Origin: Oceanobacillus senegalensis
GTDB lineage: Bacteria > Bacillota > Bacilli > Bacillales > Amphibacillaceae
DNA: 64,000 nucleotides
Direction of reading: 5' to 3'
Assembly (NCBI RefSeq): GCF_900176885.1
Contig: NZ_LT839648.1
Span: 1,821,533 to 1,885,532 of the forward strand
The translations under genes were made by a program, and so were the position numbers. The notes under the pieces are model-generated. The model was not told the DNA's origin and made no database searches. It saw only the letters and a list, made by a program, of their open reading frames with translations. Shown here one piece after another: positions 41,650-43,748 of the stretch (its first letter is position 1; every line of letters begins with the position of its first letter).

Positions 41650-41803
41650 AGCTTAAATACCGCTGCGGAAATACACTACGCTTTCCGTGGGAGCTGCTGA
41701 GCCTCCTCCGAGCTAATGCTCTCCGTAGTCTCACCTAGGCTTTTCATCCCACTGGAGTCTTCGTGTATTCCTTCGCTGGTTGGTGCTAACCATCACACAC
41801 CTT
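41650..41803. repeat. Palindromic Bacillaceae-type intergenic repeat
   Basis: The segment starts GCTGCGGAAATACACTACGC and ends CGTGTATTCCTTCGC, so its ends are imperfect inverted repeats. Inside, GTGGGA (41698 area) and TCCCAC (41747 area) pair again, giving a long folded structure. I recall closely similar sequences from many Bacillaceae intergenic regions, but no search was run. It lies in the sigG-ylmC gap. Confidence 0.6.
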
Positions 41804-42114: not shown

Positions 42115-42900
42115 TCAACCCTCAAACATTTGTTTATTCATTTGACTTATAGCTGCTTTCTCTAAGCGTGATACCTGGGCTTGTGAAATTCCAATTTCAT
42201 CAGCTACTTCCATTTGTGTCTTACCTTGGAAAAAGCGTTTATTAAGTATCATCTTTTCTCTATCATTAAGCTTGTACATTCCTTCTTTTAAAGATAACTT
42301 ATCTACCCACGAGGAATCCTTATCTTTATCATCACTAATTTGATCCATCACAAAAATCGGATCTCCACCGTCATTATAAATTGGCTCAAATAAGGATACG
42401 GGGTCCTGAATCGCATCCATTGCAAATACGATATCATGATGAGGAATTCCCATTTCTTCAGCAATTTCTGCTGGAGTTGGTTCTTTCGATGTCTTGTTAA
42501 TTAATTTTTCTCTGACTTGTAATGCCTTATACGCAATATCTCGTAGTGATCTAGAAACTCTAATCGGGTTATTATCTCGGAGATATCTTCTAATTTCTCC
42601 TATAATCATCGGAACAGCATACGTGGAAAATCTTACATTATGTCCTAAGTCAAAATTATCAATGGATTTCATTAAACCTATGCAACCTACTTGGAACAGG
42701 TCATCTACATATTCGCCACGATTATTAAATCGTTGTATAACGCTTAGTACCAGTCGAAGATTCCCATTCACTAATTCTTCGCGCGCACTTATATCCCCTT
42801 CTTGCTGCATTCTAATGAATAATTCTTTCATTTCTTCATTGCTGAGTACTGGTAGCTTTGATGTATCAACACCACATATCTCAACTTTATGTCTAGTCAT
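42115..42900 (-). CDS. sigG: RNA polymerase sigma-G (forespore)
   Basis: Sigma-G directs late forespore gene expression after engulfment. The 261-residue protein has region 2 with DDLFQVGCIGLMKSIDNFD near 66-84 and FSTYAVPMIIGEIRRYLRDN near 92-111, region 3, and region 4 with the helix-turn-helix MEVADEIGISQAQVSRLEK near 230-250. It is not sigma-F, being longer, and its N-terminus (TRHKVEICGVDTSKLPVL) is typical of sigma-G. It follows sigE as in B. subtilis. Its ribosome binding site (GGGAGGG) is buried in a long leader hairpin in read-through transcripts, described separately. Confidence 0.96.
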   Translation of the reverse strand: MTRHKVEICGVDTSKLPVLSNEEMKELFIRMQQEGDISAREELVNGNLRLVLSVIQRFNNRGEYVDDLFQVGCIGLMKSIDNFDLGHNVRFSTYAVPMIIGEIRRYLRDNNPIRVSRSLRDIAYKALQVREKLINKTSKEPTPAEIAEEMGIPHHDIVFAMDAIQDPVSLFEPIYNDGGDPIFVMDQISDDKDKDSSWVDKLSLKEGMYKLNDREKMILNKRFFQGKTQMEVADEIGISQAQVSRLEKAAISQMNKQMFEG

Positions 42901-42905
42901 ATGTT

Positions 42906-42966
42906 AACCCTCCCAGATGGTGATGCTGTTCATGGACAGTATCTCCTTCGGGGAGGGTTTTTATGC
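42906..42966 (-). promoter_or_regulatory. sigG promoter and RBS-hiding leader hairpin
   Basis: On the minus strand AACCCTCCC (42959-42951, read down) pairs perfectly with GGGAGGGTT (42914-42906), which contains the sigG ribosome binding site; the loop holds an inner stem CTGT/ACAG. A sigma-F/G-type promoter, GCATA (42966-42962), 18 bases, GATACTG (42943-42937), lies so that its transcript would start inside the loop and lack the left arm. Only read-through RNA from sigE would then be blocked. Confidence 0.7.
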
Positions 42967-43022: not shown

Positions 43023-43748
43023 CTAAACCATTTTATTAAATTCTTTTTTTAATCGTCTTATAATCTTTTTTTCTAAACGAGAGATATAGGATTGAGAAAT
43101 CCCCAACATATCAGCAACATCCTTTTGTGTTTTCTCCTCTTGTCCTATTAACCCAAACCTTAATTCCATAATCTGCTTTTCCCTATCATTTAGTTTGGAT
43201 AGAGCTGCCTTTAATAGGCTCTTATCCACATCAGACTCAAGTCCCTTTGTTATTATATCATCATCCGTACCTAGTACATCAGACAATAACAATTCATTGC
43301 CATCCCAATCAATATTCAATGGCTCATCAAATGATACTTCGGACTTTAATTTATTATTTCTTCGTAAGTACATTAATATTTCATTTTCTATACACCTAGA
43401 GGCATAGGTAGCTAATTTTATCTTTTTCTCAGGATTAAAAGTATTTACTGCTTTGATTAGACCAATGGTACCAATACTTATCAAATCTTCAATATTTATA
43501 CCTGTATTTTCAAATTTACGGGCAATATACACAACCAGACGTAAATTACGCTCAATTAATATCGATCTAGCCGTTTTATCTCCTTTTGGCAGCAATACTA
43601 ATAATTCCTGTTCTTCCTGCTTAGTTAGTGGTGGCGGAAGTGCCTCACTCCCCCCAATATAGTAAATTTCATCTGATTTCAAACCCAATTTCATGAGTAA
43701 TTTATACCACTTTAACCTGAGACGTAGACGCATTTTCCACAATTTCAT
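43023..43748 (-). CDS. sigE: RNA polymerase sigma-E precursor (mother cell)
   Basis: Pro-sigma-E is made before polar division and activated in the mother cell when SpoIIGA removes its N-terminal membrane-associated prosequence. The prosequence is clear: a basic amphipathic stretch ([20 protein letters not shown]) followed by the conserved DEIYYIGG cleavage region near residues 25-33. Regions 2 to 4 are complete, with [19 protein letters not shown] near 115 and the region-4 helix-turn-helix [19 protein letters not shown] near 210. The 241 residues match B. subtilis with a two-residue longer prosequence. Confidence 0.97.

Follow-up and report, generated by a model that had tools for sequence, protein, structure and literature searches.

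The sigG gene of Oceanobacillus senegalensis follows sigE directly on the same strand, at a distance of 122 bp, within the window considered here (the whole stretch analysed, 64,000 nucleotides of contig NZ_LT839648.1, positions 1,821,533 to 1,885,532); the question raised by this locus is whether an inverted repeat, which joins the sigG promoter to the sigG ribosome binding site (RBS), could keep sigma-G from being made on RNA that runs on from the sigE operon. In Bacillus subtilis, for which Mearls et al. 2018 (PMC5942855) is cited throughout from the portions of the article available to us, sigG (spoIIIG) likewise lies downstream of spoIIGA-sigE, and the legend of Figure 1 in that paper, with reference to Masuda 1988, describes complementary sequences predicted to form a hairpin that would keep read-through RNA from PspoIIG from being translated; as predicted for the present locus, the hairpin belongs to the read-through RNA and cannot form in PsigG transcripts. 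This large hairpin is there called a "proposed" read-through block, with Masuda 1988 and Sun 1991 as the cited sources. The sequence-only reading of the window, which had pointed to a comparable leader stem-loop for B. subtilis spoIIIG, was therefore right on this point, and the mechanism is not new, being already in print for B. subtilis sigG. "Oceanobacillus" does not appear in the main text of the same article, where the species list is given in a figure. The features of the locus are collected in Table 1.

Table 1. Features of the sigE-sigG region of O. senegalensis, in the numbering of the window.
Feature	Position	Strand	Remark
sigE	43023..43748	-	ORF of 241 aa; upstream gene, whose operon would be the source of read-through RNA
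-35 element GCATA of the sigG promoter	42962..42966	-	from the sequence
Promoter spacer, 15 nt	42961-42947	-	holds the left arm
Left (anti-RBS) arm AACCCTCCC	42951..42959	-	perfect complement of 42906-42914
-10 element GGAGATACTG	42937..42946	-	from the sequence
Inferred sigG transcription start (+1)	42930	-	7th base past the -10 element, by the B. subtilis +1/RBS numbering (PMC5942855)
Right arm GGGAGGGTT	42906..42914	-	contains the sigG Shine-Dalgarno sequence GGGAGGG (42914-42908)
sigG, ATG start at 42900	42115..42900	-	ORF of 261 aa

The perfect pairing of the upstream AACCCTCCC with the sigG RBS, GGGAGGGTT, was confirmed in the minus-strand sequence (42959-42951 with 42914-42906), and the promoter motif is present as had been described, with the right spacing: GCATA (42966-42962), 18 nt and GATACTG (42943-42937) are the same as GCATA, 15 nt and GGAGATACTG in the counting of Mearls et al. 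The sequence and the helix search place the promoter in the 5' strand of the RBS hairpin or next to it; the nine-nucleotide left arm ends 20 nt before the putative +1, while the longer helix, reaching 42948, ends 17 nt before it. The fold of the 143 nt from 43022 to 42880 has an energy of -42.8 kcal/mol (z = -4.06) and the spacer/RBS duplex one of -18.0 kcal/mol, as compared with a mean of -8.1 for shuffled spacers; in each case none of 200 shuffles was as good. Upstream complementarity to the RBS was also ranked over 145 ORFs bearing a Shine-Dalgarno (SD) sequence, of at least 150 aa, sigG included, with the complement sought within 60 nt upstream (mechanical, not curated, ORFs from the window and 400 kb of the same genome); sigG ranks first, with a score of 26, followed by 25, the median being 13. 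Fairly strong anti-RBS stretches occur at three other ORFs (L216, L225 and L213). The strict promoter motif proves nothing by itself, since it has four matches in this genome and six in the reversed control, i.e., it is not rarer; the putative sigma-F/sigma-G promoter is supported by its conserved position in the sequences of relatives, and not by the rarity of its motif. Assignment to a known RNA family was rejected, as Rfam returned only two chance-level matches to MIR821 (E 0.19 and 0.32).

Three further features were observed around sigG. A second inverted repeat, GGTACTT TTTTC AAGTACC (42992-42974, minus strand), lies between sigE and the sigG promoter, with no U run after it. A short reading frame, ATG...GGT TAA (42933-42904, minus strand), crosses the sigG leader and the RBS; it is probably due to chance, since in some relatives the ATG is replaced by TTG or the stop is missing. 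Downstream of sigG, positions 41676-41694 of the plus strand contain CTACGCTTTCCGTGGGAGC, which has four copies in the genome versus none for the reversed control and is perhaps an interspersed repeat.

Folding of both transcripts, a check proposed in the sequence-only reading, gave the expected difference: the RBS is hidden in the read-through fold and freer in that of the promoter RNA. With 30 nt of coding sequence in each, the predicted probability that the SD is unpaired is 0.0003 in the read-through RNA versus 0.38 in the promoter RNA, and it is 0.59 in the latter with 40 nt of coding sequence. In these models the RBS of the promoter RNA is freer, not simply free; the earlier statement that this transcript leaves the site free thus stands in comparison with the read-through RNA, but not at face value, the SD being only 0.38-0.59 unpaired. 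In the predicted folds the hairpin cannot form in RNA from the putative promoter start, where it lacks the left arm. This conclusion does not depend on the exact start, because 5' ends placed between 20 nt before the putative +1 and 4 nt after it give a predicted SD access of 0.56-0.71; at 25 nt upstream, with part of the left arm back, access is 0.195. The read-through RNA had also been called untranslatable; its RBS is indeed hidden in the predicted folds, but the term is overstated for a block that we infer from them and that, in B. subtilis as well, is given as "proposed" (PMC5942855).

Relatives were taken from at least 80 named loci, from 28 genus genomes and from 101 genomes sampled from the order. 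A sigG match is found in 28/28 genus genomes (E <= 1e-100) and in 100 of the 101 order-sample genomes (E <= 1e-90), the genome of the window included; among the matches listed, from which very near genomes may be missing, the nearest named loci belong to Oceanobacillus, Ornithinibacillus and Virgibacillus, with 93% protein identity. Two loci of the genus group share their upstream stretch with the named Oceanobacillus bengalensis and O. oncorhynchi (L098/L003 and L106/L007), hence the label "Oceanobacillus-like genus". Pooling gave 207 loci, of which 197 differ in upstream sequence; of the 28 from the genus, four were dropped as duplicates, three of these duplicating named loci, and 24 distinct genus leaders remained. 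A sigE-like ORF precedes sigG in 194 of the 197 distinct loci, at 250 nt or less in 175/194. In one locus, L114, the two genes are 982 nt apart, and something may have been inserted there. The -35/-10 motif, at a spacing of 14 or 15 nt, is found in 185 of the 197, the 12 loci without it being dropped (L072, L073, L075, L082, L112, L113, L124, L129, L152, L206, L207 and L209). Two of the latter, L112 and L113, retain a C/T-rich arm after GCATA though the -10 no longer fits the motif; to judge from the letters, the arm may have been kept there apart from the promoter. The -10 element is invariant in the 24 genus leaders except for position 3 (A to T, 3/24) and position 8 (C to A, 3/24). L089, L096 and L099 have GGTGATAATG as the -10 and ATCACC in the leader; GGTGAT thus finds its full complement in ATCACC, and the mismatch present in the window is missing.

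The overlap of the promoter and the left arm had been regarded as special to this genome, and this claim failed. In an unrestricted search reaching up to 200 nt upstream, of which the segment from -35 to -10 makes up 16%, the best partner of the SD falls in that segment in 21/24 genus leaders and in 117 of the 136 further loci of the GCATA type, as against 3 of the 25 loci of the GAATA type that lie outside the genus. Bacillus mojavensis (L018), a close relative of B. subtilis, also has its left arm in the promoter spacer, where TTTTTCCCACCC pairs with GGGAGGGAAAAA; the letters of the arms differ from the AACCCTCCC/GGGAGGGTT of the window. Across the sequences compared, the overlap is the common state of GCATA-type loci and is weak or absent in Paenibacillus-type ones. 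The GAATA type comprises 27 loci, two within the genus and 18 named Paenibacillus; its median spacer pairing is -8.3 versus -14.7 kcal/mol, 16/27 still beat shuffled spacers at the 5% level, and a promoter-only search finds an SD-covering helix in 18 of the 27.

The difference between the two folds is likewise widespread: predicted SD access is lower in the read-through RNA in 24/24 genus leaders and in 154 of the 185 loci overall, and it is not lower in 31. Median access in the genus is 0.00 for the read-through and 0.57 for the promoter RNA, and for the 128 other GCATA-type loci, from which nine near relatives were set apart, 0.16 and 0.32. A clean contrast (<0.3 vs >0.5) is seen in 48/185 loci overall, in 19/24 of the genus and in 23/128 of the other GCATA-type loci; by folding alone, the switch therefore looks sharper in the genus than elsewhere.

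Two alignments were used to examine whether the helix is kept as pairing: A1, comprising the genus, and A2, for which 30 loci were picked by hand from among the 136 other GCATA-type ones. In each of them, independently, the arm-RBS helix is predicted by RNAalifold. The genus arm is variable, almost solely by exchange of C and T: arm columns 14-19 hold a pyrimidine in 138/144 cells versus 19/92 in the rest of the spacer, and in A2 the corresponding figures are 145/150 and 31/90. In the genus the named helix has 92.9% of its cells paired, as compared with 40-79.3% when it is slid, and the own spacer forms a better duplex than 95% of composition shuffles in 143/185 loci (22/24 in the genus). Exchange of arms between the genus and the other loci favours the own arm in 0.90 of 960 trials and in 0.85 of 3264; for swaps within the genus this holds in only 0.59 of 552.

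Covariation adds little to this picture. In A1 one of the eight pairs of the named helix changed on both sides, not beyond shuffles (the covariation score was reached by 42/500 shuffles and the paired percentage by 108/500), and in A2 none of 13 pairs did so. The changes are mostly one-sided because the RBS hardly varies, and with a near-invariant RBS covariation cannot prove the helix. The pair at the stem base is formed in 127/147 loci (U-A in 89, A-U in 24), a value reached by none of 2000 permutations, after 35 loci without GGAGGG and three with a poor core were left out of the 185; however, on the tree the U-A/A-U swap occurs just once, and the permutation result is thus not repeated evidence. 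In four supported independent pairs differing on the left side, the right side follows in 0.1 on average, and the next pair out from the stem base gives no signal within groups (1488/2000 permutations reach it). Covariation was accordingly ruled out as proof of the helix, with one event on the tree and sides that do not move together in independent pairs.

The best explanation, to which we assign a probability of about 0.83, is that this element is the copy, at the sigG orthologue, of the read-through block proposed for B. subtilis. Three other explanations were considered. The pyrimidine-rich spacer might be kept for the RNA polymerase carrying sigma-F or sigma-G, or for tuning of the promoter, with the pairing to the purine-rich RBS as a by-product. 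The scarcity of two-sided covariation fits this view, as does the location of the arm within the spacer, whose length is itself functional in B. subtilis (PMC5942855, section 9), and the constraints on promoter and RNA are inseparable by position because the arm sits there. Yet the pairing becomes weaker in most loci when the spacer is shuffled with its composition kept, GAATA-type loci pair much more weakly while having the same kind of promoter, and arms exchanged between the genus and the other loci mostly pair worse than the native ones; with these three results against it, we regard a pure promoter preference as unlikely. That RBS pairing in the promoter RNA itself, and not read-through, is what counts, with the leader as a general damper or sensor of the kind of the small B. 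subtilis RBS hairpin, seems very improbable. A 5-bp hairpin in the promoter RNA of B. subtilis does damp expression 2-4-fold, RBS hairpins of -6.0 to -8.9 kcal/mol are reported in 15/15 Bacilli (PMC5942855), and the SD of the window is still partly paired in the promoter RNA; but the left arm lies upstream of the putative +1, and in the genus the leader from +1 to the SD has a median fold of -1.4 kcal/mol, compared with -5.4 elsewhere, with 0/24 at -3 kcal/mol or better versus 117/136, and no CTCC-type leader element (0/24 versus 110/136).

The inverted repeat could also act mainly as an intrinsic terminator, ending spoIIG transcripts on the minus strand and stopping antisense RNA from sigG on the plus strand. 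A terminator is predicted between sigE and sigG in B. mycoides (PMC3762067, as far as the text was available), and by a simple rule sense-strand terminator-like sites occur between the two genes in 17/134 other loci, versus about 0.02 per shuffle, and in 2/27 GAATA-type loci; moreover, positions 42942-42957 of the plus strand form a short terminator-like stem followed by a T run, antisense to the sigG leader. On the minus strand of the window, however, the right arm is followed by AACAT and not by a U run, and the same rule, applied to the last 200 nt between sigE and the promoter, gives no sense-strand site in the genus (0/24). The plus-strand stem reaches -5 kcal/mol or better in only 6/24 genus loci, so that stem and T run may have arisen incidentally from the A-rich flank of the -35 and from GGAG in the -10 element, and a T run of at least four is present at that site in only 28/136 other GCATA-type loci. 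Lacking a site on the minus strand and with a stem so little conserved on the other, the terminator reading was rejected as having hardly any likelihood.

The hairpin is a real, conserved element, functionally plausible as a read-through block; its anatomy, its conservation and its predicted folds are documented above. According to the block proposed for B. subtilis, RNA begun at the spoIIG promoter would run past sigE and carry the sigG promoter as RNA; in it, the spacer, AACCCUCCC, would pair with the sigG RBS, and the leader with part of the -10 element (GG, GAU and CUGU). With the RBS hidden, ribosomes would be unable to load and no sigma-G would arise from this RNA. The RNA made by sigma-F or sigma-G from the sigG promoter would start about 20 nt past the left arm, hence without it, and would be translatable in the forespore. 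That read-through occurs in this organism, where the promoter RNA starts, which sigma factor is used and how large the block is are parts of this account that we infer. The explanation given in the sequence-only reading is right in outline: it fits the folds of both transcripts and the explanation offered for B. subtilis (PMC5942855), but it was overstated in presenting the overlap as special, the RBS as free and the read-through RNA as untranslatable. The available portions of a Rho study and of a B. anthracis screen contain nothing on a sigG read-through hairpin.

A similar arrangement is found in bacteriophage T4, where the RBS of gene e (lysozyme) is hidden in longer early transcripts, and late promoters, which adjoin the 5' strand of the structure or lie in it, give rise to translated RNA without its 5' part (PMC3014915, in the sections available). 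The structure lowers lysozyme synthesis 100-fold (PMC3014915), and similar control is described for soc, 49 and I-TevI (PMC3014915, PMC2988022, likewise seen in part). The setting differs, phage timing there and cell-type sigma factors here, and by analogy the control of gene e would be convergent with the sigG hairpin, not homologous to it. The transposases of IS10 and IS50 are protected from outside transcription in a related manner, read-through RNA hiding the start region of the gene; unlike sigG, these are ends of mobile elements, without a developmental promoter. The available part of an IS10 paper (PMC5006887) does not describe protection from read-through.

Apart from the letters of the arms, the locus differs from that of B. 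subtilis in three respects: the promoter spacing is 15 nt and not 14, the start codon is ATG and not GTG, and the small RBS hairpin of the promoter RNA is weak. Mearls et al. list, for 15 Bacilli, a 14-nt spacing in 14 and a non-ATG start in 11 (PMC5942855). In the genus, 20/24 leaders have the 15-nt spacing, while 119/128 other GCATA-type loci have 14 nt, and ATG is the start in 23/24 versus 36/128. A small RBS-sequestering hairpin of the type of Mearls et al. was not found in the genus, where the energy program and the stretch folded differ from theirs; the parallel with B. subtilis drawn in the sequence-only reading thus holds for the read-through hairpin, but it left unmentioned the small hairpin of the promoter RNA, which is weak in this genus (24/24). 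The 15-nt spacing is found also in Virgibacillus, Lentibacillus, Terribacillus and some others, with six changes on the tree; these are therefore clade traits with few independent origins. For a linked evolution of the 15-nt spacing, the ATG start and the weak small hairpin, only 4, 4 and 8 independent pairs were available, with a median sign-test p of 1, and the three may represent one event in one clade.

From these sequences and modelled folds, the other brakes on sigG of B. subtilis look relaxed in the Oceanobacillus-like genus, with the read-through hairpin kept; in our reading, this hairpin would be the chief cis brake left there on the translation of sigG. One may speculate, and this is a tentative view that we consider rather doubtful, that the genus shifted from graded damping by short spacing, non-ATG start and small hairpin to an all-or-none gate, in which a better-spaced promoter would give readily translated RNA and the read-through hairpin would remain as the chief brake on premature sigma-G, acting in cis on translation.

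As a mechanism, the sigG read-through block is no surprise; its value lies in the breadth of its conservation and in the difference between lineages. To judge by the former, a safety catch that was proposed for a single model species is retained widely at the sigG locus, where the promoter itself encodes it. The latter offers a natural comparison, with a lineage in which the read-through block is kept, while the brakes that guard B. subtilis against premature or vegetative activity of sigma-G seem to be relaxed, and by which the question of which layer of control matters becomes testable.
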